Positions 16,903 through 34,030 of a DNA stretch of 64,000 bases are shown here, one piece after another. The notes below the pieces were generated by a model that did not search any database, was not told the origin of the DNA, and worked only from the letters and a program-made list of their open reading frames with translations. The stretch is from Thioalkalivibrio sp. XN279 (GTDB lineage: Bacteria > Pseudomonadota > Gammaproteobacteria > Steroidobacterales > XN24), in the NCBI RefSeq assembly GCF_011089885.1, contig NZ_JAANBD010000015.1:186001-250000 (forward strand). Direction: 5' to 3'. Every line of letters starts with the position of its first letter. Positions within the stretch are counted from its first letter, which is position 1. Both the position numbers and the translations under genes were made by a program.

Positions 16903-17604
16903 ATGTCGTCCACCGATCATCCCTCCGCCCACATCCAGCTCGAGTCCGTCAGCAAGGACTACGACGAGCACGGCCAGCCCCATCCCGTCCTGCGCGAGGT
17001 CAGCGCCGAGATCGCGCGCGGCGAGCTGATCGTGCTGGTCGGGCGCTCGGGCTCGGGCAAGAGCACCTTGCTGAACATCATCGGCGGGCTGGACCGGCCC
17101 AGCCGGGGCGAAGTGCGCATCGGCGGCCAGCCGCTCTCCGGGCTCTCGGAAGACGGGCTCGCTCGGCTGCGGCGCCGGGACATCGGTTTCGTGTTCCAGT
17201 TCTTCAACCTGGTGCCGACCCTTACGGCGCTGGAGAACCTGCTGCTGCCGCTGGACCTGCTGGGCGTGGAGCGCGCGGAGGCGCGGCAGCGCGCGGAGGA
17301 CTGGCTGCAGGCCGTGGGCCTGCCCGGGCGCGGGAGCTCTTTCCCCGAGGAGATGTCGGGCGGTGAGCAGCAGCGCATCGCGCTCGCCCGCGCGCTCATC
17401 CACCGGCCCGGCCTGGTGATCGCGGACGAGCCCACCGGCAACCTCGACCTGGAGACGGCGCGCCAGGTTCTGGGCCTGCTCGACGACCTGTGCCGGCGCG
17501 AGGGCACCACCCTGGTGATGGCGACCCACAGCCCGGAGGTGGTCGGCGTCGCCGACCGGGTCTTTACCATCCACGACGGGCGCCTGGAGATCTCCACGCC
17601 GTGA
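16903..17604 (+). CDS. LolD-like ABC transporter ATP-binding protein
   Basis: A 233-residue ATPase of the LolD/MacB (FtsE-like) class: Walker A GRSGSGKS, signature MSGGEQQRIALARAL, Walker B GLVIADEPTGNLD, and the switch ATHSPEV. The ATG at 16903 has a GGAAG site upstream. Its stop overlaps the GTG of the large permease, so they form one complex. Such complexes use ATP to move lipoproteins, lipids or peptides out of the inner membrane rather than to import solutes. The upstream psp genes suggest an envelope-related role, but no promoter evidence ties them together. Confidence 0.92.
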   Translation: MSSTDHPSAHIQLESVSKDYDEHGQPHPVLREVSAEIARGELIVLVGRSGSGKSTLLNIIGGLDRPSRGEVRIGGQPLSGLSEDGLARLRRRDIGFVFQFFNLVPTLTALENLLLPLDLLGVERAEARQRAEDWLQAVGLPGRGSSFPEEMSGGEQQRIALARALIHRPGLVIADEPTGNLDLETARQVLGLLDDLCRREGTTLVMATHSPEVVGVADRVFTIHDGRLEISTP

Positions 17605-20129
17605 GCCGCCTGCTGGCCCGCTCCGGGCGGCGCTTCTTCGCCCGCCACCCCTGGCAATTCGTGCTGGCCGTGGTCGGCGTGGCGCTCGGTGTGGCCGTGG
17701 TGCTGGGCGTGGACCTGGCCGGCGCCAGCGCGCGCCGCGCCTTCGACGCCTCGACCGAGCTGGTGATGGGGCGCGCCACCCACCAGGTGCTGCCTCGCGC
17801 CGGGCGCATGGACGAGTCGGTTTACGTCGAGCTGCGCCGGGCGTTGCGTGCGCAGGGCAGCGGCGGCGCGGCAGCGCCCGCCGTCGAAGGTGCGGTCACG
17901 CTGCCGAACGGGCGCCGGGCCGTGCTGCTGGGCCTGGATCCTTTCGTCGAGGCCCCGTTCCGCGACGAACTGACGGCCTGGAGCGGTGAAGTCGACCTGC
18001 TGGCCCTGCTGACGCGGCCGCGCGCCGTCGCGCTGCCGGAACCGCTGGCCGCCGAGCTCGGCGTGGCGGCAGGCGAGCAGGTCGAGGCCGTTTCGCCCGC
18101 CGGTGCGATCGTGCTCGAGGTCGCGGGGATAGTGGCGCCCGACCCGGAACGGTCTGCCGCGGCCTCGGGCTATGTCTTCGCGGACATCGCCACGGCCCAG
18201 GAACTGCTCGGCATGGTCGGCGCACTCACCCGCATCGACCTCATCGTCGGCGACGAGGTGGCGGCAGCGTTGGCGGCGGGCCTGCCGCCCGAGGTCGAGC
18301 TGGTCGAGGCCTCGTCGCGCTCGCGCGCCACCTTCGGCATGACGCGGGCGTTCCGGCTCAACCTGACGGCCCTGTCGTTGCTGGCGCTCCTGGTCGGCGC
18401 CTTCCTGATCTACAGCACCATGAACTTCCTCGTCGTGCGCCGCACCCGGACCATCGGCATCCTGCGCAGCGTGGGCGTCGACCGCGCCGGCATGGTCCGC
18501 AGCATCCTCGGTGAAGCGCTCATCGTGGGCGTGCCGGGTACGCTGCTCGGCCTGCTGCTGGGCGCCGGCCTCGGCTCCGGCCTCACCGGGCTGGTGGTGC
18601 AGACCATCGACGACCTGTACTTCCGCCTGCGGGTGGACGCGCTCGCCCTGGCCGGCTGGCCGTTCGCCAAGGCGGCTGCGTTGGGCGTAGGCGCCACCCT
18701 GCTGGCGGCCCTGGGTCCGGCGCTGGAAGCGGCCAGCATCCCGCCGCGCGCCGTCCTCTCGCGCGCCTCCATGGAACGGCGCACGCGGCGACGCCTGCCG
18801 TGGCTGGCGGCCAGCGCACTGGTCGCGCTGGTCCTCGCCGTCGCCCTGCTGGCCGCCGGGCGCCACTCGCTGGTGGTGTCGTTCGCCGGCCTGTTCGGGG
18901 TTTTTCTTGCCGCCGCCCTGGCGACGCCGCCGGCCACAGCGGGCCTGATGTCCCTGCTCGACCGCGGGCTCCCGGGCCGGCTGCCCGTCCCCGCACGCAT
19001 GGCCATCCGCGGCACCACAGCCTCGCTCAGCCGTACCGGCGTGTCAGTGGCCGCGCTGGCAGTGGCGGTGGCCACGGTGATCGGGGTCGGCCTGATGGTG
19101 AGCAGCTTCCGCCTCAGCGTCGACGAATGGCTGCAGCAGACCCTCGTGGCCGACTTCTACCTGGCGGTGGACGACGCCTGGTGCGAGAGCGCGGGCGGGC
19201 TGGATCCGCTGGCCGCCGAGCTCAGCGCACTCCCCGGCATCGACGAGGTGACCTATTCGCAACGGCTGCGCCTGCAGGCGGGCGGCGAGGAGTGGCGCCT
19301 GTGGGCGGTCGATCCGGGCCAGCGCGGCCTGGGGTCGACGATCCTGGCCGGGGATCCCGCGACGGCCCGGGCGCGCTTCGATGCCGGCGACGCCGTGCTG
19401 GTGTCAGAGCCCTGGGCCAACCGTCGCGGCACCGGGGTCGGCGACATCATCAGCCTGCCGACGCCCGCGGGCGTGGTGGATTTCCCCGTGGCCGGGGTGT
19501 TCCGCGACTACACCTCGGACCGCGGCGTGATTGCACTGCACCGCGACCGCTACCGCGCCCTGTGGGGCGACGCCTGCAGCGAGGGCGTCGGCGTGACGTT
19601 CGCGCCGGGCACCGACGATGCCGCCGCGCGGCGCGCCATCGAGAGCGTGCTGCCGCCAGGCAGCGCGATCTGGCTGTCGAACAACGCCGAGCTGCGCGCG
19701 GCCTCGCTGGCAGTCTTCGACCGCACTTTCACCATCACGCGCGTGCTCCAGGTGCTCGTCGGCCTGGTCGCCTTCCTCGGCATACTCTCGGCGCTGCAGG
19801 CGCTGCAGCTGGAGCGCGTGCGCGAGACCGCAGTGCTGCGCGCCGTGGGCTGGGTGCCGCGCCAGCTGCGCGCCCTGGTGCTGGCGCAGACCGGACTGCT
19901 CGGCCTCGCTGCCGGGATCTTCGCCATGCCGCTGGGCATCGCACTGGCAGGGCTGCTGGTATTCGTCATCAACCGCCGCGCCTTCGGCTGGACCATGAGC
20001 TTCGAGATCAGCGCCGGCGAACTGCTGCAGGGCGTGCTGTTGGCCCTGGTCGCGGCGCTGCTGGCCGGCGTCTATCCCGCCTGGCGCACCAGCCGGCGGC
20101 CGGTGGCGCAGGACTTGCGTGAAGAGTGA
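17601..20129 (+). CDS. FtsX-family ABC permease, two-domain
   Basis: An 842-residue permease with the duplicated FtsX/MacB-like arrangement: an N-terminal membrane helix (FVLAVVGVALGVAVVLGVDL), a periplasmic domain, a three-helix FtsX block around residues 250-400, a central pair of helices, a second periplasmic domain, and a second FtsX block near the C-terminus ending YPAWRTSRRPVAQDLREE. It starts at GTG 17601 overlapping the ATPase stop. The size fits YbbP-type permeases, pairing with the LolD-like ATPase. The TGA stop (20127-20129) coincides with the end of the hairpin repeat described next. Confidence 0.9.
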   Translation: MSRLLARSGRRFFARHPWQFVLAVVGVALGVAVVLGVDLAGASARRAFDASTELVMGRATHQVLPRAGRMDESVYVELRRALRAQGSGGAAAPAVEGAVTLPNGRRAVLLGLDPFVEAPFRDELTAWSGEVDLLALLTRPRAVALPEPLAAELGVAAGEQVEAVSPAGAIVLEVAGIVAPDPERSAAASGYVFADIATAQELLGMVGALTRIDLIVGDEVAAALAAGLPPEVELVEASSRSRATFGMTRAFRLNLTALSLLALLVGAFLIYSTMNFLVVRRTRTIGILRSVGVDRAGMVRSILGEALIVGVPGTLLGLLLGAGLGSGLTGLVVQTIDDLYFRLRVDALALAGWPFAKAAALGVGATLLAALGPALEAASIPPRAVLSRASMERRTRRRLPWLAASALVALVLAVALLAAGRHSLVVSFAGLFGVFLAAALATPPATAGLMSLLDRGLPGRLPVPARMAIRGTTASLSRTGVSVAALAVAVATVIGVGLMVSSFRLSVDEWLQQTLVADFYLAVDDAWCESAGGLDPLAAELSALPGIDEVTYSQRLRLQAGGEEWRLWAVDPGQRGLGSTILAGDPATARARFDAGDAVLVSEPWANRRGTGVGDIISLPTPAGVVDFPVAGVFRDYTSDRGVIALHRDRYRALWGDACSEGVGVTFAPGTDDAAARRAIESVLPPGSAIWLSNNAELRAASLAVFDRTFTITRVLQVLVGLVAFLGILSALQALQLERVRETAVLRAVGWVPRQLRALVLAQTGLLGLAAGIFAMPLGIALAGLLVFVINRRAFGWTMSFEISAGELLQGVLLALVAALLAGVYPAWRTSRRPVAQDLREE

Positions 20130-20136
20130 CCTGGCC

Positions 20137-20212
20137 GCAGCCGGACCATGACCGGGTCCTTCTCACTTGGAAGTCTTATGCCGCTCGAAGGACCCGGTCA
20201 TGTCCCGGCTGC
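20137..20212 (+). repeat. Hairpin A of element copy 1
   Basis: Two 26-base arms (20137-20162 and 20187-20212) pair at 24 positions and enclose a 24-base loop whose core is TTGGAAGTCTTATGCCGCTC reading on the plus strand. Total length is 76 bases. The stem differs from that of copy 2 by paired changes, while the loop differs at one base. Confidence 0.9.
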
Positions 20213-20439
20213 TACACCGGTTACAGGTCCAGCGGCCTGGTGCACGCGGACCAGGTTGCCGGCGTAGACGGGGGGGTTCAGTGGTGCGGCCGGTCACACG
20301 CGTGGCGCTGTCGTGCTCGGGTCGCCGTGCTTGTTCACCGGGCTGGGCGTGGCTTGCCGCCGACGCCACAAGGGCGGCCCGCTGACATCGCCATCCGGTG
20401 CGACCTTGCGCCAGGAGCGTCGGGGGCATCTCCGCAGTA

Positions 20440-20515
20440 GCGGCCGGGGTATTGCATGGTCCTTCGAGCGGCATAAGACTTCCAAGCGAGAAGGACCATG
20501 CAATGCCCCGGCCGC
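20440..20515 (+). repeat. Hairpin B of element copy 1
   Basis: Two 26-base arms (20440-20465, 20490-20515) pair with one G-T-type mismatch around a 24-base loop. The loop is the same sequence as in hairpin A but on the opposite strand, so the two hairpins carry inverted loops. Total length is again 76 bases. Confidence 0.9.
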
Positions 20516-20636
20516 GGGCAGGTGAGAAGGCCCACCGGGGCCCAGGCGCGTCATCGCGCTGCATCCCGTTCATGCAGGGTTAACGAACCCTATGCCAGTC
20601 TGTCGCCAAGGTCAGTCGATGCCAGCAAGGGGTTAC

Positions 20637-21503
20637 ATGTCGCCATGCCGCCGTATTTCCCGGGGGCTGCTGCTGTGCGCGGCGCTGCTGTCGCTGGCCG
20701 GCTGCGGTACGGCCTTTATCTACGAGCGGGCCGACGGTTTTGCCGGGCGCTGGCTGAATGACTACGTAGAACTCGAGCCGCAGCAGCGGGCGGCGCTGGA
20801 AGCCGAGCTCGAGGCGCTGCACGACTGGCATCGCCGTGAACACCTGCCGCGCTATTCCGCCTGGCTGCGGTCGGTGGCGGCGCAGCTGGAGGCGCCGGGC
20901 GCCCTGGGGCCGGCAGAGATCCGGGCCCGCGGCGAGGAGCTGGGGGCGTTCTGGCGGGAGCTGGCCGACCGGTCGCTGCCGCCGCTGCTCGAGCTCGGCA
21001 GCGGCCTGGAGGACGCCCAGGTGACGGAGCTGGTCGCGCGCCTGCGGGAGGAACACCGGGAATTGCTGGAAGAGGACTCGGGGCGCAGTGCGGAATGGCT
21101 GGCGGCTCGCCGGGCGCGCTCCATGGAGCGCTTCCTGAAACGCTGGACCGGGCGGCTCTCGGCACAGCAGCGCGCCGAGGTGCGCGCCTGGTCGCAGCAG
21201 CTCGAGCCCTCGCGGGAGGCCTGGCTGGAGAGCCGCATGGGCTGGATCGACGCCATGGAGCGCGCGCTGGCCGGCCGTCATGACCAGGAGGCGCTCGCGC
21301 TGGCGGCGCAAACGCTGATCGCGCGGCCGGAGGACCGCTGGAGCGAGGAGTACGCCGGGCTGGTGGCGCGCAACAGTGCCCGCACCACGGCATTCCTCGC
21401 CGGTTTCCTGGCCGGACTCGACCCGGTACAGCGGACGCGGGCGATCGAGCGCCTCGAGTCACTGGCGTCCGATTTCGAGTCGCTGTCGGCGGCGGCCGGT
21501 TGA
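20637..21503 (+). CDS. DUF6279-like lipoprotein
   Basis: A 288-residue protein with a signal sequence and lipobox (LSLAGC, Cys near residue 22), then a helical domain beginning YERADGFAGRWLNDYVELEPQQRAALE, a pattern I associate with DUF6279-family lipoproteins of unknown function. The ATG at 20637 has an AAGGGG site 6 bases upstream and gives a proper signal peptide; earlier in-frame starts do not. It lies 113 bp after the hairpin element; that gap also holds a small palindrome, AGGGTT-AACG-AACCCT, at 20576-20591. Confidence 0.75.
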   Translation: MSPCRRISRGLLLCAALLSLAGCGTAFIYERADGFAGRWLNDYVELEPQQRAALEAELEALHDWHRREHLPRYSAWLRSVAAQLEAPGALGPAEIRARGEELGAFWRELADRSLPPLLELGSGLEDAQVTELVARLREEHRELLEEDSGRSAEWLAARRARSMERFLKRWTGRLSAQQRAEVRAWSQQLEPSREAWLESRMGWIDAMERALAGRHDQEALALAAQTLIARPEDRWSEEYAGLVARNSARTTAFLAGFLAGLDPVQRTRAIERLESLASDFESLSAAAG

Positions 21504-21587
21504 CGCCGGCTTTGTTGCAGTGCGCATAGCTGCGGCTGTGGACTGCTGATTTAATTCCGGGTCGTTGTGTCCCCTGGAGAGCGGAAC

Positions 21588-23267
21588 GTGCACAAGCCAT
21601 GGCTGGAAAGTTACATCCCCGGCACCCCCGCTGAGATCGATCTCAGCGACGGCGCCACCCTCGTGAGCATTTTCGAGCAGGCCGCGCGGCGCTTTGCCGA
21701 CCGGCCGGCTTTCTCGTGCATGGACCACGCCATCACTTACGCCGAGCTGGACCGGATGTCGGCCGAGTTCGCCGGCTGGCTCTCCGGCGAGCTGGGACTG
21801 AAGCCCGGCACGCGCGTGGCCATCATGCTGCCCAACCTGCTGCAGTACCCGGTGGCCCTGTTCGGCGTCCTGCGCGCCGGCATGACGGTCGTGAACGTCA
21901 ATCCTCTCTACACGCCGCGCGAGCTCAAGCACCAGCTGGTGGACTCGGGCGCCGAGGCGATCCTCATCCTGGAGAACTTCGCGGCGACGCTGCAGAAAGT
22001 CATCGCGGACACGCCGGTAAAGCACGTGGCTCTGACCGGCATCGGCGACCTGCTGCCTTTCCCCAAGCGCCACATCGTCAACTTCGTGGTGCGCCGGGTG
22101 AAGAAGATGGTCCCGGAGTACCAGCTGCCGGGCAGCGTGCGGCTGGAGCAGGCGCTGGCGCGCGGTCGCGCCCGCGGCTTCACGCCGGTGCAGGTGACGC
22201 AGGACGACCTGGCGTTCCTGCAGTACACGGGCGGCACCACGGGCGTGTCCAAGGGCGCCATGCTGACCCACCGCAACATGGTGGGGAACCTGCGCCAGAT
22301 GCACGCCTGGATCGGTGATCTCATCGACGAGGGACGCGAGGTGGTCATCACCGCGTTACCGCTGTACCACGTGTTCAGCCTGGTGTGTAACTGCCTGCTG
22401 TTCATGTCCGTGGGCGGCCTGAACGTGCTCATCACCAACCCGCGCGACATTCCGGCCTTCGTCAAGGAATTGTCGAAGCTGAACTTCTCCATCATCACCG
22501 GGGTCAATACGCTGTTCAACGCGCTGTTGCAGGACCCGGACTTCGCCAGGCTGGATTTCTCGCATCTCAAGTGGGCCGGCGCCGGCGGCATGGCGCTGCA
22601 GGCCGCAACGGCGCAGAAATGGCACGAGGTGACGGGGAAGTATGTGCAGGAAGGCTACGGGCTCACGGAGACATCACCGGTGGTGACCATGCAGCCCACC
22701 ACGGTGGATGCGGTCTATACCGGCACCATCGGCCTGCCGCTGCCCTCGACAGAGGTGCTGATCCGGGACGAGGACGGGCGCGACCTGCCCGTGGGCGAGC
22801 CCGGCGAGCTGTGCGTGCGCGGCCCGCAGGTGATGAAAGGCTACTGGCAGCGCCCGGAGGCGACCGAGCAGGTCATGTACCCGGACGGCTTCCTGCGCAC
22901 CGGCGACATCGCGACCATGGACGAGCAGGGGTTCTTCCGTATCGTCGACCGCAAGAAGGACATGATCCTGGTGTCGGGTTTCAACGTCTTCCCGAACGAG
23001 GTGGAGAACGTCGTCACGCTGCATCCCGACGTGATCGAGGCGGCGTGCATCGGCGTGCCGGACCCGAAGTCGACCGAGGCCGTGAAGATTTTCGTGGTCA
23101 AGCGTGAAGGTGCGGTGCTGGACCGGGACGGCGTCATCGCGTGGTGCCGCGAGAGCCTCACGGCGTACAAGGTGCCCCGCCACGTGGAATTCCGCGCCGA
23201 ACTGCCGAAGACCAACGTGGGCAAGATCCTGCGCCGTGCGCTGCGTGACGAAGCGCAGGGAGGCTGA
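21588..23267 (+). CDS. fadD: Long-chain acyl-CoA synthetase FadD
   Basis: A 559-residue adenylate-forming enzyme that activates long-chain fatty acids to acyl-CoA at the inner membrane. YTGGTTGVSKGAMLTH (about residue 213) is the AMP-binding P-loop, GYGLTETSP the second motif and RTGDIATMDEQGFFRIVDRKKD the FACS motif. MLPNLLQYPVALFGVLRAGM is almost the same as E. coli FadD. The GTG at 21588 (VHKPWLESY) has a GGAGAG site and fits the family start. It supplies substrate for FadE and for the dehydrogenase cluster further along. Confidence 0.94.
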   Translation: MHKPWLESYIPGTPAEIDLSDGATLVSIFEQAARRFADRPAFSCMDHAITYAELDRMSAEFAGWLSGELGLKPGTRVAIMLPNLLQYPVALFGVLRAGMTVVNVNPLYTPRELKHQLVDSGAEAILILENFAATLQKVIADTPVKHVALTGIGDLLPFPKRHIVNFVVRRVKKMVPEYQLPGSVRLEQALARGRARGFTPVQVTQDDLAFLQYTGGTTGVSKGAMLTHRNMVGNLRQMHAWIGDLIDEGREVVITALPLYHVFSLVCNCLLFMSVGGLNVLITNPRDIPAFVKELSKLNFSIITGVNTLFNALLQDPDFARLDFSHLKWAGAGGMALQAATAQKWHEVTGKYVQEGYGLTETSPVVTMQPTTVDAVYTGTIGLPLPSTEVLIRDEDGRDLPVGEPGELCVRGPQVMKGYWQRPEATEQVMYPDGFLRTGDIATMDEQGFFRIVDRKKDMILVSGFNVFPNEVENVVTLHPDVIEAACIGVPDPKSTEAVKIFVVKREGAVLDRDGVIAWCRESLTAYKVPRHVEFRAELPKTNVGKILRRALRDEAQGG

Positions 23268-23277
23268 CATCCGACTG

Positions 23278-24021
23278 TTGCCCCGCTTCATGCTCGCCCT
23301 CGCCGCCGCGATGCTGGTGGTTCCCGCCAGCGCGGCGGAAGAGGGCGCGCCCGAGGCCGCGCCCGGGCTGGCGGTGCCGCCGCACGAGGCCATCTACCAC
23401 GCCTCGGTGCGCGGCATCCCGGTCAGCGTCGGCCTGCGCCTGGAACAGCAGGACGGCGACTACTTCCAGTACCGCTCCTGGGCGGAGCCGCGCGGCCTGC
23501 TGGGCTTCATCCGGCGTGAACTCACCGAGACCAGCCTCGTGCACATCGAAGACGGGCGGGTCGTCCCCGTGTCCTACCGCAAGCGCGACGAGTTCGGGGA
23601 CCGCCACAGCGCCATGCGATTCGACCCCTATGCCGGCGAGGTGCACATCGAGTATCGCGGCAGCAGCCAGACGCTGGACTGGGAGCCGGGCATCTATGAC
23701 CTGCTCAGCCTGCGCCTCGCGCTGGCGCACGACCTGGCACGCGGCCAGCTGGCGGAGGTCTACCGGGTGGTGGACGACCGCGGGCGCATCGAAGAAGTCG
23801 ACGTCGAGGTGGCCGCGCGCGAAACCATCGATACACCCCTGGGGAAACTCGAGACCGTGCGTCTCGAGTACCGCAGCCGGCGTCGCGACCGGCTGTTCCG
23901 GCTGTGGATCGCGCCGGACATGGACGCGGCGCTGGTCGCGCTGGAGCAATACGAGGGCGACAGCCTGCGCGGCCGCCTCAACATCGTCGAGTACAGCCGC
24001 CTGGAACCCGCTGCGCCCTGA
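23278..24021 (+). CDS. DUF3108-family periplasmic protein
   Basis: About 247 residues with a signal peptide ending VPASAA, followed by a DUF3108-type beta-rich domain (YHASVRGIPVSVGLRLEQQ, DLLSLRLALAHDL, VEVAARETIDTPLGKLETVRLEY, RLFRLWIAPDM). The family is exported and of unknown role, found next to lipid or cell-envelope genes. It starts 10 bp after fadD. The start is uncertain: TTG 23278 or ATG 23290 are both in frame after a GGGAGG site at 23258-23263. It is probably co-transcribed with fadD. Confidence 0.78.
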   Translation: MPRFMLALAAAMLVVPASAAEEGAPEAAPGLAVPPHEAIYHASVRGIPVSVGLRLEQQDGDYFQYRSWAEPRGLLGFIRRELTETSLVHIEDGRVVPVSYRKRDEFGDRHSAMRFDPYAGEVHIEYRGSSQTLDWEPGIYDLLSLRLALAHDLARGQLAEVYRVVDDRGRIEEVDVEVAARETIDTPLGKLETVRLEYRSRRRDRLFRLWIAPDMDAALVALEQYEGDSLRGRLNIVEYSRLEPAAP

Positions 24022-24054
24022 TCGGGGGGATCAGCCGAGGGTCGGCGCCCGATC
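24020..24054. terminator. Nested hairpin between convergent genes
   Basis: GATCGGG (24020-24026) pairs with CCCGATC (24048-24054), and inside it GCCGA-GGG-TCGGC forms a second stem. It lies exactly between the stops of the DUF3108 gene and the convergent small coiled-coil gene, as expected for a shared terminator. Confidence 0.5.
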
Positions 24055-24316
24055 AACCGAGCTTCGCGCGGATACGCCGGTAAGCCTGGCCAAGCTCCTC
24101 GGCGAGCACGCCGAACGCGGCGCCGACTTCGCCGGACGCCTCCCTGGCTTCTCCAGCAGCGCCGGAGAGCCGGCCTTCCAGCCGCTCCCACTTGCGCTCG
24201 AGCCCGGCCCATTCCTCGCGGAATTCCGCCTTGCCCAGCTCCATCTGCAGCCGCAACTCGTCACGTTCCTGGCGCAGCTTGTCGAGGACCTGCTTGCGCT
24301 TCGATGCTTCGGTCAT
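24053..24316 (-). CDS. Small coiled-coil protein
   Basis: An 87-residue soluble protein, almost wholly charged helix (SKRKQVLDKLRQERDELRLQMELGKAEFREEWAGLERKW), consistent with a coiled coil that may act as a scaffold or small regulator. ATG 24316 has a GAGGTG site 7 bases upstream. No family recognised. It lies downstream of the minus-strand SDR cluster, 39 bp after the small membrane gene. Confidence 0.65.
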   Translation of the reverse strand: MTEASKRKQVLDKLRQERDELRLQMELGKAEFREEWAGLERKWERLEGRLSGAAGEAREASGEVGAAFGVLAEELGQAYRRIRAKLG

Positions 24317-24364
24317 GACTGGCACCTCGCTTCAGTACCGCCTGTACCAAGCATAGGCCAGGCC

Positions 24365-24625
24365 TCAGGTTCCTCCAGCCCCTCCGGCCGGGGCCGGGCG
24401 CAGGCGTCCGCCGAGCCACTGGCCGAGAAAGTAGGCGCCGACGAACAAGGGCAGGGTGGCGAGACGCCAGTCCAGCCCGAGCAGGTCGCGGATCAGCCAC
24501 ACCAGCGGGATCGGCGCGTGGATGGCGACGATCCACGGCAGCGAGCGCTTGGCGAGTCCCGCGCGCCAGTAGCCGAAGGGCAGGTTCGCGAGCCAGACCA
24601 GCAGGAGCGCCAGCGCCAGGTTCAA
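24365..24625 (-). CDS. Small membrane protein
   Basis: An 86-residue protein with three hydrophobic stretches (LALALLLVWLANLPFGYW, LPWIVAIHAPIPLVWLI, LATLPLFVGAYFLGQWLGG) and a basic Pro/Gly/Ala-rich tail. The start appears to be TTG at 24625, 28 bp after the SDR stop, with a GGAGA-like site. I do not recognise the family. It is in the same direction as the SDR-kinase-dehydrogenase operon. Confidence 0.6.
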   Translation of the reverse strand: MNLALALLLVWLANLPFGYWRAGLAKRSLPWIVAIHAPIPLVWLIRDLLGLDWRLATLPLFVGAYFLGQWLGGRLRPAPAGGAGGT

Positions 24626-24653
24626 GGGACCGTCTCCGCCGTTCCGCCAGGCC

Positions 24654-25418
24654 TCAGGTGAGCAGGCCGCCGTCGACCGGCAGGCAGGCGCCGGTGATGT
24701 AGGAGGCGGCGTCCGAGGCGAGGAACAGGATGGCCGGCGCGATCTCCTCCGGCTGCGCCACCCGGTTCATCGGGATCAGCGGCAGGATCATGTTGAGGAT
24801 GCGCTCGTTGCCGATCAGCGCCGAGGCGAACTTGGTGTCGGTCAGCCCGGGCAGCACGGCGTTGACGCGCACGCCCCACGGCGCGCATTCCTTGGCGAAG
24901 GCCCGGGTCATGGAGATGACCGCTGCCTTGGTGACGGAGTAGATCCCCTGGCCAGGACCCGGGCGCTCGCCGTTGATGGACGAGGTGTTGACGATGGCGC
25001 CGCCCCCGTTCTGCTTCATCAGCAGCGCCGCTTTCTGCGACATGACGAAGTAGCCGCGTATGTTCACGTCCACCGTTTTCTCGATCATGGACACAGGGGT
25101 CTCGGTGATGTGGCCGAAGTGCGGATTGGTGGCGGCGTTGTTGACCAGGATGTCGAGGCGGCCATGGGCGCCCTCGATCTGGGCGAAGGCGGCCTCGATG
25201 GCATCGGGCTCGCCCACGTGGCAGGCCATGGGCGTGGCCTGGCCGCCGGCGGCGCAGATGGACTCGGCGACGGCCTCCACGCTCTCGTGCTTGCGCGAGC
25301 TGACGATGACGTGAGCGCCGTGTTGCGCCAGCAGGCGGGCCGTGGCTTCGCCAATGCCGCGCGAGGCGCCGGTGACCAGGGCCACGCGGCCGTAGAGATT
25401 GAACAGTGCATCGCTCAT
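24654..25418 (-). CDS. SDR oxidoreductase of the acyl-CoA/kinase operon
   Basis: A 254-residue classical short-chain dehydrogenase: TGASRGIGE cofactor motif, NNAATNPHFG, catalytic Ser (NTSSING) and YSVTK (Tyr-X3-Lys). These oxidise or reduce hydroxy/keto groups with NAD(P). ATG 25418 has an AAGGAG site 7 bases upstream. It follows the APH-type kinase gene by 10 bp, so it is in one operon with the kinase and acyl-CoA dehydrogenase. In the Pseudomonas lva system the SDR LvaD interconverts 4-keto and 4-hydroxyacyl-CoA, and this gene would fit that place. Confidence 0.88.
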   Translation of the reverse strand: MSDALFNLYGRVALVTGASRGIGEATARLLAQHGAHVIVSSRKHESVEAVAESICAAGGQATPMACHVGEPDAIEAAFAQIEGAHGRLDILVNNAATNPHFGHITETPVSMIEKTVDVNIRGYFVMSQKAALLMKQNGGGAIVNTSSINGERPGPGQGIYSVTKAAVISMTRAFAKECAPWGVRVNAVLPGLTDTKFASALIGNERILNMILPLIPMNRVAQPEEIAPAILFLASDAASYITGACLPVDGGLLT

Positions 25419-25428
25419 CAGGGTCTCC

Positions 25429-26511
25429 TTAAAACCGTGTCTTGCCTGCCGCGACGGCCTCGGCGCTGCGCGAAAGCACCGTGCAGAACTGCCCGAAGGG
25501 GGCAAAGCGCGGATTTTTCGTCTGGCCCAGCACGAAGCGGTAGTAGATCTGCTGCACGATCACGGCGAGGCGGAACAGGCCGTATACATAGTAGAAATCG
25601 AAGCGCGCCGGCGCGAGACCGGTGCGCTCGCAGTAATAGTCCACCAGCTCGGCGCGGCGCATCATGCCGGGCAGGTGGGTGGGCAGCATGCGGATCTGCT
25701 GCAGGGGTTCCGGGTCATCCGCCTGCACCCAGTAGGCCAGCGAAGCGCCGAGGTCCATGAAGGGGTCGCCGAGGGTGGCCATCTCCCAGTCCAGCACGCC
25801 CACGATGCGCCAGCCGTCCGGCCCGGGGCGCAGCACCACGTTGTCGAACTTGTAATCGTTGTGGATCAGCGCCGCGCGCCCGGACTCCGCCGGCTGGTTC
25901 GCCTCCAGCCAGTGCATCAGCGTCTCGTTGTCGGGCACGTCGTCGGTACGCGCCGCGCGGTAGCGCTGCGACCAGCCGCTCACCTGGCGCGCCACGTAGC
26001 CCTCCGGATGGCCCATCTCGCCCAGTCCGGCGGCGGCGTAGTCCACCTCGTGCAGCTCGGCCTGCACGTCGACCAGGTTGCGGCAAAGTGCCGTGGCCTG
26101 TGTGGGGGACAGCGACATGTCTGCCGGCAGGTCGCGCCGCAGGATGCGGCCCTTGAGCCGTTCCATGAGGTAGAACTCCTCGCCCAGTACCTCGCGGTCG
26201 GCGCAGAACAGCAGCGTGCGCGGCGCATAGGGGAAGGCGCCGCTGATGCGCGACAGGATGCGGTACTCCCGGCCCATGTCGTGGGCGCTGCGCGCCTTGG
26301 TGCCGAAGGGCGGGCGCCGCAGCACCCACTCGCGGCTGCCGGCGCGCACGAGGTAGGTCAGGTTGGAGGCGCCGCCCGGGAACTGGCTGATCTCCACCGC
26401 GCTGTCGAAGCCGGGCAGGGCGCGCGCCAGGAAGCCGGCCACCACCGCGGGATCGAGTGCCTCGCCCGCGCGCTGCGGGCGCGCCTCTTCCGGCAGCGCC
26501 GTCTCGCTCAT
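25429..26511 (-). CDS. APH-fold kinase, LvaA/ACAD10-like acyl-CoA phosphotransferase
   Basis: A 360-residue protein of the aminoglycoside-phosphotransferase fold: ISQFPGGASNLTYLV (ATP loop), EFYLMERLKG (hinge), LIHNDYKFDNVVL (catalytic HNDYKFDN, Brenner motif) and VLDWEMATLGDP (metal Asp). Its ATG overlaps the acyl-CoA dehydrogenase stop by 4 bp. APH kinases paired with GPDEVH-type dehydrogenases phosphorylate the 4-hydroxyl of hydroxyacyl-CoA (LvaA; the APH domains of human ACAD10/ACAD11). I therefore infer a lipid kinase, not an antibiotic-resistance enzyme. No LvaB-like partner gene is visible. Confidence 0.85.
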   Translation of the reverse strand: MSETALPEEARPQRAGEALDPAVVAGFLARALPGFDSAVEISQFPGGASNLTYLVRAGSREWVLRRPPFGTKARSAHDMGREYRILSRISGAFPYAPRTLLFCADREVLGEEFYLMERLKGRILRRDLPADMSLSPTQATALCRNLVDVQAELHEVDYAAAGLGEMGHPEGYVARQVSGWSQRYRAARTDDVPDNETLMHWLEANQPAESGRAALIHNDYKFDNVVLRPGPDGWRIVGVLDWEMATLGDPFMDLGASLAYWVQADDPEPLQQIRMLPTHLPGMMRRAELVDYYCERTGLAPARFDFYYVYGLFRLAVIVQQIYYRFVLGQTKNPRFAPFGQFCTVLSRSAEAVAAGKTRF

Positions 26512-27704
26512 CGTTCCGCCGCGGCCTTGAACAGGCGGCGCGCCACCGCCATGCGGTGGACCTCGTCCGGGCCGTCGTAGATGCGCGCGGCGCGCTCCTC
26601 GCGATAGAAGAAAGCGAGGATGCGGTCGTCGGTGACGCCGAGCCCGCCGTGCGCCTGCAGGGCGCGATCCACCACCCGCTGCATCACGTTGGCGGTGTAG
26701 TACTTGATCATGGAGACCCGCTCGCGCGCGGCGCGGAAACCTTCCTGTTCGATGGTCCAGGCCGTCATGAGCACCAGCGCGCGCGCCGCCTCGATCTCGG
26801 CAGCCGACTCGGCAACCCAGTCCTGCACTGCGCCCATCTTGGCCAGCGGCAGCCCCGGCTTGATCTCGCGCTTGAGGGTGTGGCGCAGCATCTCGTCCAG
26901 CGCGCGGCGACAGATCCCGAGCCAGCGCATGCAGTGGTGGATGCGCCCGGGCCCGAGCCGCTCCTGCGCCATGGCGAAGCCGGCGCCGGCTTCGCCCAGC
27001 AGGTTCGTCGCCGGCACACGCACGTTTTCCAGGCGCACCTGGCCGTGGCTGAAGAAGCCGCGGCCGGGATGGCCCATCACCGGGATGTTGCGCACCAGCT
27101 GCACGCCGGGCCGCTCCATTTCCACCAGGATCATGCTGGCGCGCCGGTACTTGTCGGCCTCCGGGTCGGTCACGGCCATGCAGATACCGAACGCAGCCCC
27201 GTCGGCTGCAGTAGCGAACCACTTGTGGCCGTTGATGACGAACTCGTCGCCGTCGCGCACCGCCGTGGTGCCCATCTCGGTGGGATTGGAGCCGGCGAAC
27301 TCCGGCTCGGTCATGAGGAAACAGCTGCGCACCTCGCCCGCGGCGAGCGGCACGAGGAAGCGCTCGCGCTGCGCCGGCGTGCCGTGCGCCACCAGCAGTT
27401 CGGCGTTGCCCGCGTCCGGCGCCTGGCAGCCGAAGACGAGGTGGCCCAGCGGGCTACGCCCGAGCATCTCCGACAACAGGCCGAGCACCACCAGGCCCTC
27501 GCCGCTGCCGCCCTCGTGCGGGGACAGGTTGGGGGCCCACCAGCCGCGGGCCTTGACCTCCGCGCGGCATTCCGCCACGGCTGCATCCAGCGCTTCCCAC
27601 TGCCCCTCGAGCAGCAGCGACTCGAGCGGCTGCACGCGCTCGATGACGAATGCACGCACGGCCTCGAGACGGGCGGAGAGTTCCTGGGAGATGCTGAAGT
27701 CCAT
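26508..27704 (-). CDS. ACAD10/11-type acyl-CoA dehydrogenase
   Basis: A 398-residue acyl-CoA dehydrogenase with the FAD contacts CFLMTEPEFAGSNPTEMGTTA and RALQAHGGLGV. The C-terminus reads IYDGPDEVHRMAVARRLF: where classical enzymes have the catalytic Glu in YEGT-Q-I, this one has Asp in YDGPDEVH, the signature of the ACAD10/ACAD11/LvaC group. Those enzymes act on 4-phosphohydroxyacyl-CoA made by an APH kinase. The ATG at 27704 is separated by 5 bp from the histidine-phosphatase stop, and its stop overlaps the kinase start. Confidence 0.9.
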   Translation of the reverse strand: MDFSISQELSARLEAVRAFVIERVQPLESLLLEGQWEALDAAVAECRAEVKARGWWAPNLSPHEGGSGEGLVVLGLLSEMLGRSPLGHLVFGCQAPDAGNAELLVAHGTPAQRERFLVPLAAGEVRSCFLMTEPEFAGSNPTEMGTTAVRDGDEFVINGHKWFATAADGAAFGICMAVTDPEADKYRRASMILVEMERPGVQLVRNIPVMGHPGRGFFSHGQVRLENVRVPATNLLGEAGAGFAMAQERLGPGRIHHCMRWLGICRRALDEMLRHTLKREIKPGLPLAKMGAVQDWVAESAAEIEAARALVLMTAWTIEQEGFRAARERVSMIKYYTANVMQRVVDRALQAHGGLGVTDDRILAFFYREERAARIYDGPDEVHRMAVARRLFKAAAER

Positions 27705-27709
27705 GGCGA

Positions 27710-28429
27710 CTACCTGAAGGTGACGAGTTCGCGGCCGCCCGCGAGTTCGAGGTGGGCGACGTTGTTGAAGCCGAGCAGCAGCGCATCCTCGTGGCGCTGC
27801 GAGCGACCGTAGTAAAGCTGCGTGACGGAAGCATTGTAAATGCTCCAGTTCATCGACAGGGTGCGCTTGTTGGACAGCCCCAGCACGGCGCGCAGCGCGG
27901 CGGCGATGGCGCCGCCCGAGGTCACGATGCCGATGTGCGCCTTGGGGCCGTGCGCGGCCAGCGCGTCGCTGAGGCCCTGTCCCACGCCGCGGCAGAAGTC
28001 GCGCCAGTCTCCCAGCCCCTCCTGCTCGTGCGGCAGGTTGTCCATCCACGCCTTGAGCATGAAGCGGAAGGCGAACTCGAACAGCTTGGGATCCGACACC
28101 ACGTCCGCGCGCGTGATACCGCGCGGCTCGCCCACGCGCTCCATGAACAGCGGCAGGTAGGCGCGGATCACGGCGACGTGGTCGTATTCGTTGAACGCCT
28201 CGTGCACGGCGTCGGGCGGCGCGCGCTTGCCCAGCACCTCGAGGATGGCGGTGCCGGTGTCGCGCTGCCGGCGCATCGAGCCGCTGAGCAGCGCGTCCAG
28301 CGGCGTGCGGCTGCGCTGCAGGTGGCTGCCGAGCGCATTGGCCTGGCGGCGACCCAGCGCGGAGAGCTGGTCGTAGTCCTTTTTCCCAAAGGACGCCTGG
28401 CCGTGTCGAATCAGGTGGATAACCGCCAT
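27710..28429 (-). CDS. Histidine phosphatase (phosphoglycerate-mutase-like)
   Basis: A 239-residue protein starting MAVIHLIRHGQASFG, with the catalytic RHG motif at the N-terminus and a second catalytic His in GIVTSGGAIAAA-like context (SGG rather than the usual SHG). The fold removes phosphate from small molecules or proteins. It is the first gene of the minus-strand operon leading into the ACAD10/11-type dehydrogenase and the kinase, so it may act on a phosphorylated pathway intermediate or by-product. The replaced SHG histidine weakens the catalytic assignment. Confidence 0.8.
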   Translation of the reverse strand: MAVIHLIRHGQASFGKKDYDQLSALGRRQANALGSHLQRSRTPLDALLSGSMRRQRDTGTAILEVLGKRAPPDAVHEAFNEYDHVAVIRAYLPLFMERVGEPRGITRADVVSDPKLFEFAFRFMLKAWMDNLPHEQEGLGDWRDFCRGVGQGLSDALAAHGPKAHIGIVTSGGAIAAALRAVLGLSNKRTLSMNWSIYNASVTQLYYGRSQRHEDALLLGFNNVAHLELAGGRELVTFR

Positions 28430-28566
28430 GGATCGGGACAGTCTGCTTCGCTCCGGCGGGCGGGAAAGCCCCAAGCCCGATGTTCAGGTCAGTGCGCAAG
28501 GTCAACAATGCGCGCGGTCTCGTGCATTATGTGCCATTTGCCGGGCAGCGACACGAGCCGCAGGTC

Positions 28567-29388
28567 ATGAAAAGAGAAAGAATCGTCATCACCGGAGGCG
28601 GCAGCGGCCTCGGGCGCGCGCTGGCGCTGGAGTACGCGCGGGCAGGCTGGCGCGTCGCCGTGCTGGATCGCAATCGCGCCGCCGCCGAGAGCGTGGCTTC
28701 CGAGGTCGAGGCGGCGGGCGGGAAGTCGCTGGCGCTGGCCTGCGACGTCACCGACCCGGACGCGGTAGGCCATGCCGCCACCGCTATCGGGCGCGGCTGG
28801 CACGGCCTCGACGTGCTGGTGAACAACGCCGGCATCGCGGGATCGGGCACGGTGGCGGACACGCCCGCCGAAGACTGGCGCCGCATCATGGAGGTGAACT
28901 TCTTCGGCGTGGTCACCACCAGCCGCGCCTTCCTGCCGACCATGATCCGCGCCGGCTCCGGGCATGTGGTCAATATCGCCTCGGCGGCGGGCTTCGTCTC
29001 GGCGCCCGGCATGGCGGCCTACAATGCTTCCAAGGCGGCGGTCATCTCCCTTTCCGAGTCCATGCGCGTCGAGCTGTCCGCCCACCGCATCGGCGTCAGC
29101 GTCGCCTGCCCCTCCTTTTTCCGCACCAACCTGCTGGAGGAATTCAGCGGCAGCGAGGCGTCCCGGCAGTACGCGCTGAAGCTGATGGAGAAATCGCCCA
29201 TCAGCGCGGACGACGTGGCACGCTTCATCCGCCGCGGCGTGCGCAAGAAGGAGTTCATGCTGGTCCCGCATGCCGAAGCGCGGCGCATACTGCTGCTGAA
29301 GCGCTACGCGCCGGACCTGTTCTTCACTGCCGTGCGCAAGGGCGCGGCGAAATTCCTCGAGGCCCAGGCAAAGAGCAAGCGCACATGA
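28567..29388 (+). CDS. SDR family oxidoreductase
   Basis: A 273-residue short-chain dehydrogenase: ITGGGSGLGRALA cofactor motif, NNAGIAGSG, catalytic Ser in NIASAAG and YNASK. The C-terminal 45 residues (RRILLLKRYAPDLFFTAVRKGAAKF) are basic and amphipathic, suggesting membrane contact. It diverges from the histidine-phosphatase operon with a 137-bp gap. Its stop overlaps the next ATG by 4 bp. ATG 28567 gives the normal SDR start; the ribosome site is weak. Confidence 0.85.
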   Translation: MKRERIVITGGGSGLGRALALEYARAGWRVAVLDRNRAAAESVASEVEAAGGKSLALACDVTDPDAVGHAATAIGRGWHGLDVLVNNAGIAGSGTVADTPAEDWRRIMEVNFFGVVTTSRAFLPTMIRAGSGHVVNIASAAGFVSAPGMAAYNASKAAVISLSESMRVELSAHRIGVSVACPSFFRTNLLEEFSGSEASRQYALKLMEKSPISADDVARFIRRGVRKKEFMLVPHAEARRILLLKRYAPDLFFTAVRKGAAKFLEAQAKSKRT

Positions 29389-30455
29389 ACAAGCCATGGA
29401 TGATCTACGGCGCCAACGGATACACCGGCGAGCTGATCGCGCGCGAGGCGGTGCGGCGCGGGCACGCGCCGCTGCTGGCCGGGCGCAACGAAGAGAAAGT
29501 CGCGGCCCTGGCCGGCGAGCTGGGGCTCGAGCACCGCTGTTTCGCGCTCGAGGCGCCGGGCGCGGTGGATCGCGGGCTCGCGGGCATGGCCCTGGTCATC
29601 CATTGTGCCGGTCCGTTCTCCGCCACCGCGCGGCCCATGATGGACGGCTGCATCCGCAACGGCGTGCATTACCTCGACATCACCGGCGAGATCGCCGTCT
29701 TCGAGCTGGCGCACCAGCTGCATGAGCGCGCCCGCCAGGCCGGCGTGTTGCTGTGTCCGGGCGTGGGCTTCGACGTGGTCCCCACGGACTGTCTCGCCGC
29801 CACCCTCAAGGAGGCCCTGCCCGGCGCGCGACGCCTCGCGCTGGGCTTCGATTCCCGCGGCGGCATGAGCCCCGGCACGGCGCGGACTTCGGTCGAGGGC
29901 CTGGCCCAGGGCGGCCGCATCCGGCGCGAAGGCAAGCTCGTGCCGGTGCCGCTGGCGTGGCGCACGCGCCGCATCGATTTCGGCGACGGCGAGAAGCTCG
30001 CCATGACCATTCCCTGGGGCGACATCGCCACGGCCTGGTATTCCACCGGCATACCGGACATCGAGGTCTACCTGCCGGCACCGCCGAAGCTGGTCGCGCG
30101 GCTGCGGCGGTTGAACTGGATCCGGCCGCTGCTCGGCCTGGGCTTCGTGCAGGCTTGGCTCAAGGGCAAAGTCGACCGCAGCGTGCGCGGGCCTGACGCC
30201 GACAAGCGCGCCCGCACCCCGACTTCCGTCTGGGGCGAGGTGACGGACGGCCAGGGCCGGGTGGTCAGCGGGCGCGTCCGCGTGGCCAACGGCTACGACG
30301 TCACCGTGCACGCTTCTCTGGGCATCGCGGAGCGCGTCCTGGAGATGCGCCGGGTGGTCGGCCACCTGACGCCCGCGCAACTCGTCGGCAAGGATTTCGT
30401 CGAGCAGTTGCCCGGTTCCACGCCGATCCAGGTCGAGGGCCAGGGTGACGACTGA
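29385..30455 (+). CDS. Saccharopine-dehydrogenase-like oxidoreductase
   Basis: A 356-residue protein with the Rossmann start WMIYGANGYTGELIAREAVRRG and LVIHCAGPFS, DITGEI, LCPGVGFDVVPTDCLA, features of the saccharopine dehydrogenase NADP-binding family that includes trans-acting enoyl reductases. Substrate unknown. It overlaps the SDR upstream (ATGA) and the YheT-like hydrolase downstream by 11 bp, so it lies in the middle of a four-gene operon likely concerned with lipid or ketone metabolism. Confidence 0.82.
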   Translation: MNKPWMIYGANGYTGELIAREAVRRGHAPLLAGRNEEKVAALAGELGLEHRCFALEAPGAVDRGLAGMALVIHCAGPFSATARPMMDGCIRNGVHYLDITGEIAVFELAHQLHERARQAGVLLCPGVGFDVVPTDCLAATLKEALPGARRLALGFDSRGGMSPGTARTSVEGLAQGGRIRREGKLVPVPLAWRTRRIDFGDGEKLAMTIPWGDIATAWYSTGIPDIEVYLPAPPKLVARLRRLNWIRPLLGLGFVQAWLKGKVDRSVRGPDADKRARTPTSVWGEVTDGQGRVVSGRVRVANGYDVTVHASLGIAERVLEMRRVVGHLTPAQLVGKDFVEQLPGSTPIQVEGQGDD

Positions 30456-31446
30456 GGCGACGCGGGATTTCGCGCCGACCGGGCTGATCGCCAATCCCCA
30501 CGTCCAGTCCATCCTGGTCAGCTCGCCCCTGCGCCGCGTGCTGCTGCGCCGGCGCGCTGCACCCGTGCTGGCCGCGAGCCGTAACCTGCTGCTGGATTGC
30601 GGGGAGGGCGTGCGCCTGCATGCCTGGCATGCGCCGCAACCCGGCGCCGGCGCACGCGGCATCGCGATCCTGATCCACGGCTGGGAGGGCGCGGGCGACT
30701 CCTCCTACCTGTTGTCTGCGTCCATGAGCATGTACGCCGCAGGTTGGGACGTGGTGCGCCTGCACCTGCGCGATCATGGCCCGAGCCATCACCTCAACGA
30801 AGACCTGTTCCACTCCAACCGCATCCGCGAGGTCGTGGGCGGCGTCGCCCGCCTCGCCGAGCTGTTTCCGCAGCGGCCGTTCTGCCTCGGCGGCTTCTCG
30901 CTCGGCGGCAACTTCGCGCTGCGTGTCGCTGCGCGCGCACAGGCCGCCGGCATTCCGCTGGACCGGGTCATGGTCGTGTGCCCGGTGCTCGATCCTGCCA
31001 GCACGCTCGACGCCATGGAGCGTGGGCCGCGTGTGTATGAACGTTACTTCATGATGAAGTGGCGTCGCTCCCTGCGCATCAAAGCGAAACTGTTTCCACA
31101 GCGCTACGACTTCGGCGACCTGAAGCGTTTCCGTGGCCTGCGCGACATGACCGACGATTTCGTGTGCGACTACAGCGAGTACCCAGACCTGGCGAGCTAC
31201 CTCGCGGGTTATGCTGTCACCGGCGACGCCCTCGCCGGCATCACGGCGCCGACCCTGCTGGTCGCGGCGCACGATGACCCGGTGATCCCGGCACGCGACC
31301 TGCCGCGCTTGGCACGGCCCGAGCCGTTGCAAATCATTGCCACCACCCGCGGCGGACACTGCGGCTTCCTGCCGTCCGCCTTCGGGCACAGCTGGATCGA
31401 CGGCCTGATGCGCGAATGGTTCGGCGCGGCGGCCGCAGGCGCATGA
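30445..31446 (+). CDS. YheT-like alpha/beta hydrolase
   Basis: A 333-residue hydrolase of the YheT/ABHD1-3 family: HLNEDLFHSNR, the nucleophile elbow GGFSLGGNFALR (GFSLGG), the Asp in AAHDDPVIP and catalytic His in TRGGHCGFL. The family contains lipases and esterases of poorly known substrates. It starts at GTG 30445, overlapping the preceding gene, and ends overlapping the next small membrane gene by 4 bp. Confidence 0.87.
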   Translation: MTTEATRDFAPTGLIANPHVQSILVSSPLRRVLLRRRAAPVLAASRNLLLDCGEGVRLHAWHAPQPGAGARGIAILIHGWEGAGDSSYLLSASMSMYAAGWDVVRLHLRDHGPSHHLNEDLFHSNRIREVVGGVARLAELFPQRPFCLGGFSLGGNFALRVAARAQAAGIPLDRVMVVCPVLDPASTLDAMERGPRVYERYFMMKWRRSLRIKAKLFPQRYDFGDLKRFRGLRDMTDDFVCDYSEYPDLASYLAGYAVTGDALAGITAPTLLVAAHDDPVIPARDLPRLARPEPLQIIATTRGGHCGFLPSAFGHSWIDGLMREWFGAAAAGA

Positions 31447-31790
31447 TCCGCATCGCTCCGCTGCCGCTGGCGATCATCATGCTGGCCTCGATCTTCGCCG
31501 CGCGCGCCGCGCTGCGCCTGGCGCAAGCGGAGTTCTACGTGCTGCATTTCGCGGTGCTGGGCTGGCCGGCCTGGGCGGTCTGGGCCGTCTCCATTGCCGA
31601 GCTGGCCGGGGCGTTGCTGCTGTTGCAGCGGGCGACCTTCCCGGCCGGCGCCATCCTGCTCGGGCTGGTGGCGGGCAGCTTCACGTTCGCCTACCTGCAG
31701 GCCGGCGCGCCGGTGGAGGCGCTCGGCCCGGGAGGCCTGCTGTTGGCGCTGGGCGGGATCGCCTTTCTCCGGCGGCTGCCCCGACACTGA
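31443..31790 (+). CDS. Small four-helix membrane protein (DoxX-like)
   Basis: A 115-residue membrane protein with four hydrophobic stretches (APLPLAIIMLASIFAARAAL, VLGWPAWAVWAVSIAELAGALLLL, AGAILLGLVAGSFTFAYL, GLLLALGGIAFLRRL). The helix pattern recalls DoxX-like small membrane proteins, but no key residues were identified. It overlaps the hydrolase gene. Its TGA stop at 31788-31790 is where the second copy of the two-hairpin element starts. Confidence 0.68.
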   Translation: MIRIAPLPLAIIMLASIFAARAALRLAQAEFYVLHFAVLGWPAWAVWAVSIAELAGALLLLQRATFPAGAILLGLVAGSFTFAYLQAGAPVEALGPGGLLLALGGIAFLRRLPRH

Positions 31791-31797
31791 CCTGCCC

Positions 31798-31873
31798 GCG
31801 GCCGTGGCATTGCATGGTCCTTCTCGCTTGGAAGTCTTATGCCGCTCGAAGGACCATGCAATACCCCGGCCGC
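31798..31873 (-). repeat. Hairpin B of element copy 2
   Basis: Arms 31798-31823 and 31848-31873 (26 bases each) pair with two mismatches around a 24-base loop identical to the loop of hairpin B in copy 1. Total 76 bases. On the plus strand the loop reads TTGGAAGTCTTATGCCGCTC. Confidence 0.9.
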
Positions 31874-32099
31874 TGCTGTGGAGATGCCCCCGACGCTCCT
31901 GGCGCAAGGTTGCACCGGATGGCGATGTCAGCGGGCTGACCCCGTGGTTGCGGCGGCAAGCCGCGCCAATCCCGGTGAGCGAGGACGGCGACCCGAGCCA
32001 GACGTGGTCGCGATTGTCCCGGGCCAGTTACCGAACCATCCCGTATCCGGCAGCGACCTGGTCGAAGTGCGTCCGGGCCTGTCCGCTGTAACCGTCGCA

Positions 32100-32173
32100 G
32101 CGGCAGGGCATGACAGGGTCCAGCTCGCTTGGAAGTCTTATGCCGCTCACAGGACCCTGTCATGCCCTGCCGC
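32100..32173 (-). repeat. Hairpin A of element copy 2
   Basis: A perfect 22-bp stem (32100-32121 with 32152-32173) encloses three loosely matched bases per side and then the same 24-base loop (32125-32148). In element orientation this loop is inverted relative to hairpin A of copy 1. Stem bases that differ from copy 1 (for example GACAGGGTCC against GACCGGGTCC) are compensated on the other arm. Confidence 0.9.
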
Positions 32174-32212
32174 GGCCAGGTCTTACAGCCAACACGGCCC
32201 GGAAGCACGCGG

Positions 32213-34030
<1,818 letters not shown>

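Follow-up and report, generated by a model that had tools for sequence, protein, structure and literature searches.

Two inverted hairpin loops in a REP-like repeat family of Thioalkalivibrio sp. XN279 and their probable origin by template switching

Introduction

How can the loop of a hairpin come to lie in opposite directions in two copies of the same element? This question is raised by a paired-hairpin element that is present twice in a 64,000-nucleotide (nt) stretch of the genome of Thioalkalivibrio sp. XN279 (contig NZ_JAANBD010000015.1, positions 186,001 to 250,000; hereafter, the window). Each copy contains two hairpins, A and B. Read in the order of the element, the loops of the B hairpins run in the same direction in both copies, whereas those of the A hairpins run in opposite directions. 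The preliminary description of this DNA noted this arrangement and offered a tiny invertible switch, or a mark of hairpin-based replication, as possible causes.

Here, we report a comparison of the source genome (G000; 3.13 Mb, a draft assembly of 29 contigs) with two relatives from the same genus (G001 and G002). The observation is real and, most likely, has an ordinary mechanism. With a probability of roughly 0.8, hairpin A of copy 2 and a second hairpin, located on contig C24, are two fixed polymerase template-switch mutations in a family of hairpins that resemble repetitive extragenic palindromes (REPs).

Inverted loops in a dispersed hairpin family

The 20-nt loop TTGGAAGTCTTATGCCGCTC has four exact occurrences in the window (Table 1) and none in 100 shuffles. 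Each occurrence lies within a hairpin, the arms of which are the near-perfect inverted repeats that had been described, 22-26 nt long and 92-100% complementary. The two copies of the element face in opposite directions, with positions 20288-20526 matching 31787-32025 at 87% over 239 nt. Loop orientation was called against the outer feet of each hairpin, which differ by side (CCTGnCCGCGG on one, CCGCTGC on the other), that is, independently of the loop. In copy 2 hairpin A, the feet are canonical on the minus strand (CCTGGCCGCGG...CCGCTGC) and the loop is not. The reported contrast between the A and B hairpins is confirmed. The covariance scores of this hairpin are 74.6 and 50.4 bits on the two strands, compared with 104-111 bits on one strand and 30-36 bits on the other for the remaining three hairpins of the window.

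The window hairpins have many relatives in the same genome, where 15 loops differ from the window loop by at most 2 mismatches. A covariance model (R1), trained on 40 hairpins and applied to 150 candidates per genome, so that the match counts are lower bounds, yielded at least 57 matches in G000, at least 33 in G001 and at least 11 in G002, both strands counted, and none among the scored candidates in 16 other relatives (19 genomes scanned, 3 positive). The loop pattern itself was found in 3 of 97 genomes of relatives, all from one genus. Of 369 genomes sampled across the class, a TCGG-type loop was present in 1, namely the source genome; G001 and G002 were not part of that sample. A hairpin script, run on fetched stretches of the three genomes, delineated 46, 23 and 8 distinct hairpins in G000, G001 and G002, respectively, with identical cores collapsed (e.g. 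that of copy 2 hairpin B) and weak hairpins liable to escape. The 28 elements of G000 comprise 20 hairpin pairs and 8 single hairpins; family elements usually consist of two hairpins in convergent orientation. Several loop types occur, among them TTGGAANTCTKATGCCGCTC, TCGGAAATCTTTATCTCGCTC and TTAGAAATCTTTATGCGCTC. These hairpins are a REP-like family of long quasi-palindromes, here known from one genus, with a stem of about 26 base pairs (bp) and a conserved loop of about 24 nt, against 20 nt for the exact window loop. On two contigs of G002 (C17 and C34; loci L083 and L153), several family hairpins lie within about 3 kb (4 and 5 seen).

Across the family, the loop direction is nearly uniform. 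Judged by the feet, 42 hairpins of G000 are canonical, 2 are inverted and 2 are ties (L133 and L144), and all those of G001 (23/23) and G002 (8/8) are canonical, for a total of 73 among 75 classifiable hairpins. The inverted pair consists of copy 2 hairpin A and the hairpin on contig C24 (C24:12938-13015, or L009:639-716), which scores 81.8 and 50.4 bits on the two strands. Among the hairpins listed, the only other one to reach 45 bits on its weaker strand (71.6/45.3) is found in G001 at the site of copy 2 (L079:297-390), where one fused hairpin, flanked on either side by a left-type foot, stands in place of the pair; it perhaps derives from a deletion between the two hairpins. At the same site in G002, no family hairpin was recognised, and copy 2 hairpin A thus has no counterpart in either relative.

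In-place inversion and arm rewriting on contig C24

The C24 hairpin does have an orthologue. Its locus is 91.6% identical to that of G001 over 1280 bp, with the same feet and with the loop exactly reversed in place; the loop sequence, TTGGAAATCTGATGCCGCTC, is the same in both species, and what differs is its direction and the arms. The right arm matches the complement of its own left arm with 0 edits in G000 and with 3 in G001, where the longest run common to both arms is 15 bp. The G000 left arm is 1 edit away from the G001 left arm and 3 edits away from the sequence predicted for a clean flip, that is, the reverse complement of the G001 right arm; the two right arms differ by 3 edits. Inspected by eye, eight other B-type right arms (L001, L003, L004, L005, L006, L024, L034 and L048) end in GGCCGCT, and only that of C24 ends in GAGCCGCT, which is complementary to the left arm of the same hairpin. 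This shared family ending supports the use of G001 to represent the ancestral state, and the ending and the edit distances together indicate that one arm was overwritten as the loop inverted. To judge from the two sequences, then, the C24 loop is inverted in place and the right arm is newly copied from the left one: with G001 as the ancestral form, the arms were homogenised, not exchanged.

Copy 2 hairpin A, the loop of which is inverted relative to its feet, resembles the C24 hairpin in the perfection of its arms, which are paired at 22 of 22 positions. We tallied mismatches in the 20 pairs closest to the loop for 74 distinct hairpins (43 from G000, 22 from G001 and 9 from G002; L024, the core of which is identical to that of L009, was excluded). 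Stem mismatches are present in 38 of the 43 G000 hairpins and absent from 5, which include both inverted hairpins but only 3 of the 41 others. The chance that both inverted hairpins fall among the 5 perfect ones is 5x4/(43x42)=0.011. Perfect 20-pair stems are found in 3 of the 22 hairpins from G001 and in none of the 9 from G002.

Orientation of orthologous hairpins

A comparison of loop orientations across relatives had been proposed in advance. For 22 of the 28 G000 loci, one or both flanks match those of a family locus in G001. Examined by eye in 23 locus pairings that involve 22 different G000 loci, 27 of 28 orthologous hairpins keep the loop direction and 1 is opposite; two pairings (L132/L151 and L137/L014) had nothing comparable and yielded no count.

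Several of these sites show changes of other kinds. At the site of copy 1 (window 20130-20522 vs L048/L081; L003/L048), the order of hairpins A and B is opposite in G000 and G001; the copy 1 element may have inverted as a whole or been replaced, and the L003/L048 hairpins may not be one-to-one orthologues. When loci L001-L010 and L127-L145 are compared with G001, the matching sites are occupied, often by unlike loop or arm types (L131 vs L058, L136 vs L053), as if copies evolve together within a genome.

Template switching and its alternatives

A replicating polymerase that occasionally switches template inside such a palindrome would copy the loop from the opposite strand and return in the other arm. 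The product would combine an inverted loop with arms made exactly complementary by the rewriting of one of them. We favour this mechanism because loop inversion combined with arm homogenisation is its published signature. Intermolecular template switching is described as giving arm homogenisation and spacer inversion in yeast genes (PMC8604942), and loop inversions in rRNA hairpins have been described with bacterial examples from Actinobacteria and Firmicutes (PMC8794818). The in-place loop inversion, the rewritten C24 arm and the long arms are all reminiscent of the cases in these reports. The present case differs from them in that the loop is 20-24 nt long rather than a few nucleotides and is part of a dispersed family of repeats, and in that we infer the mechanism from its product. 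Copy 2 hairpin A, with its equally perfect arms, would have the same origin.

Several points weigh against this interpretation. The published inversions, as far as these accounts detail them, are short, with 2-5 substitutions in yeast spacers (PMC8604942) and rRNA loops of typically 4 nt, some of 7-8 (PMC8794818), and arm rewriting is not obligatory, given that the arms were already perfect in 9 of 10 yeast inversions (PMC8604942). We have two events only, an orthologue is available for one of them, and the ancestor is represented by G001; were the ancestral C24 arms perfect, a clean flip would look identical. The sequences are those of a draft assembly. In the analysis of the stems (below), the alignment had 19 further pair types, fewer than the 21.4 of the shuffles. 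Finally, the non-Watson-Crick cells are strand-biased, so that the stems may also be under selection for folding of one strand.

The alternative that survives best, although it is unlikely, is an assembly artefact, since perfect arms give an assembler that works with short k no means of telling the two loop directions apart. Both inverted hairpins do belong to the small perfect-arm set, in a draft assembly, but the three other perfect-arm hairpins of G000 (L006, L128 and L137) are canonical. Moreover, a hairpin of about 76 bp should be shorter than one ordinary read, and loop ambiguity cannot make the rewritten C24 arm, as the 15-bp run shared by the arms of the relative would be below the usual k.

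Somewhat less likely still is a recombinational switch, in which a recombinase, or RecA-type exchange involving the two arms, toggles the loop between two states. In its favour are the near-perfect inverted arms around a strongly conserved loop and the two loops in the other state. However, a clean flip would move each arm, mismatches included, to the opposite side, whereas the C24 left arm fits the left arm of the relative and the right arm is its copy. Of the earlier proposal that the loop inverts between the arms by recombination or cruciform flipping, the in-place inversion is thus borne out by the C24 orthologue, and the proposed route is not. The near-constant direction of the orthologous hairpins, and of the classifiable hairpins at large, makes an often-flipping switch unlikely on the sequences compared. 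Invertons are invertible DNA switches in which a segment between inverted repeats is found in both directions; here, by contrast, the C24 arms were rewritten rather than swapped, and most orientations are conserved between two species. Chloroplast genomes also have small inversions of this kind, where the loop of a stem-loop is reversed between related genomes. The present inversions differ from those in affecting a conserved repeat loop on a bacterial chromosome and in the evidence of arm rewriting.

We consider it very improbable that the loop of copy 2 hairpin A was gained by gene conversion or insertion from an opposite-facing family member. Corresponding sites in different species do carry different loop and arm types, which means that copies either trade sequence or are replaced; on C24, by contrast, the loop sequence is unchanged, and the differences are confined to its direction and to the arms. 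This counter-evidence does not reach copy 2 hairpin A itself, given the fused hairpin of G001 and the lack of a recognised one in G002.

Hairpin-transfer replication of a mobile element, which leaves flip/flop terminal hairpins and would suit the 20 of 28 G000 elements that have hairpins at both ends, like replicons with palindromic ends, is hardly credible, contrary to the preliminary description: most loci are matched by their flanks in G001; searches of plasmids and phages with copy 1 gave no match at an E-value of 1e-5, and the exact loop pattern has no occurrence in viral contigs; a search of G000 for Y1 transposase genes found none, and the neighbourhoods of the four Y1_Tnp genes of the relatives (two in G001, two in G002) contain no family hairpin (best model match, E=0.6); and flip-flop inverts the entire palindrome, not the loop plus one rewritten arm.

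Covariation and strand bias of the stems

In an alignment of the family (A1), 93.5% of the cells are paired, and 107 cells carry changes in both partners; the mean of the shuffles is 31, and none of 500 reached the observed value, although part of the excess over slid controls is expected given that the structure was predicted from A1 itself. Such covariation is as expected if arms are repeatedly homogenised. We also considered a purely RNA-based reading, that of a conserved hairpin in 3' untranslated regions. The strong covariation of the stems agrees with it, but template switching could yield covariation too, and the mismatches of the inner helix are A.C, not G.T, on the loop+ strand.

The mismatch tally of the 74 hairpins comprises 69 A.C, 7 G.T and 85 other cells on the loop+ strand, which are not independent, as related copies share mismatches. 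The inner helix of A1 has 16 A.C and 0 G.T on that strand; an outer pair at the foot (columns 19/97) has 11 G.T and 2 A.C. Because A.C cells become wobble pairs when read on the other strand, the mismatches suggest folding of the loop- strand.

Genomic context and comparison with REPs

Coordinates of the elements and adjacent open reading frames are given in Table 1.

Table 1. Hairpin elements and neighbouring open reading frames (ORFs) in the window
Feature	Positions	Strand	Remarks
Copy 1, paired-hairpin element	20130..20522	+	between feet CCTGGCCGCAG and CCGCGGGCAGG; inverted relative to copy 2
Copy 1 hairpin A	20137..20212	+	26-nt arms, 2 mismatches; loop 20167-20186 (+), canonical
Copy 1 hairpin B	20440..20515	-	loop 20466-20485 on minus strand, canonical
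Copy 2, same element reversed	31791..32180	-	sequence comparison with copy 1
Copy 2 hairpin B	31798..31873	+	loop 31828-31847 (+), canonical
Copy 2 hairpin A	32100..32173	-	feet canonical on minus strand; arms 22/22 complementary; loop inverted
Inverted 20-nt loop of copy 2 hairpin A	32129..32148	+	exact match and feet
FtsX/MacB-type permease ORF	17490..20129	+	Pfam PF02687, PF12704; stop codon adjoins copy 1
DUF6279 ORF, 3' of copy 1, tandem context	20592..21503	+	Pfam PF19795
DoxX-like ORF ending at copy 2	31416..31790	+	PF13564, 20.6 bits, below cut-off 26.3
ABC transporter ORF converging on copy 2	32213..34030	-	Pfam PF00664, PF00005

Copy 1 lies between tandem genes, the FtsX-type gene followed by that for the DUF6279 protein, and copy 2 between the convergent genes for the DoxX-like protein and the ABC transporter. 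By crude gene calls from open frames, 18 of the 28 G000 elements were initially placed between convergent frames, and 21 after re-inspection of 11 doubtful or non-convergent loci, which removed L144 and added L002, L007, L135 and L142; L003, L144 and L145 look tandem, and L005, L010, L128 and L134 are ambiguous. A similarly crude method, applied to the 52 pairs of adjacent genes in the window, gives 9 convergent ones. By analogy with what has been proposed for REPs, the hairpins probably function at the 3' ends of mRNAs or in shaping DNA topology. The whole window contains no match to Rfam at gathering thresholds.

The likeness to REPs, BIMEs and REPINs (GTAG and CGTC superfamilies; PMC3733652) extends to the dispersed palindromes, often in opposite-facing dimers, to the 3'-end sites between convergent or tandem (unidirectional) genes, and to the one distinct foot; REPs, according to the same account, lie mostly between convergent and unidirectional genes. 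The family differs from them in its stem of about 26 bp, against 5-13 in REPs, and in elements that measure about 230-430 bp from hairpin to hairpin, compared with REP spacers of mostly 20-100 bp (PMC3733652). Furthermore, its foot is GCAG (the 5' foot on the loop- strand in A1) rather than the GTAG or CGTC tag, and no linked RAYT (Y1) gene was found. CGTC REPs, too, are described as lacking a dedicated transposase (PMC3733652). Thus, the family is REP-like, without a RAYT link. We did not find it described among the papers listed on Thioalkalivibrio palindromic repeats or on REPIN/RAYT hairpins, a negative that includes no sequence-level comparison with the Thioalkalivibrio REPs mentioned in PMC3733652; Thioalkalivibrio is also named in PMC3116915 and PMC2817692.

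Implications

The C24 hairpin and copy 2 hairpin A provide a bacterial case in which the product itself helps separate two routes of loop inversion: template switching rewrites an arm, whereas recombination swaps the arms. Because the family offers dozens of similar palindromes, each with its polarity marked at either foot, it is a natural counter of such events, and the strand-biased mismatches suggest that selection sees one folded strand. Tentatively, and we regard this as a possibility well short of even odds, the family could represent a new kind of REP-like element, palindromes that are renewed by recurrent template switching and in which the loop polarity and internal mismatches are under one-strand selection. 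If so, the inverted loops would amount to natural mutants that have lost polarity and that reveal the strand on which the hairpin is read; in a bolder form of the same idea, loop polarity would still flip at a measurable rate and would matter to the convergent genes.

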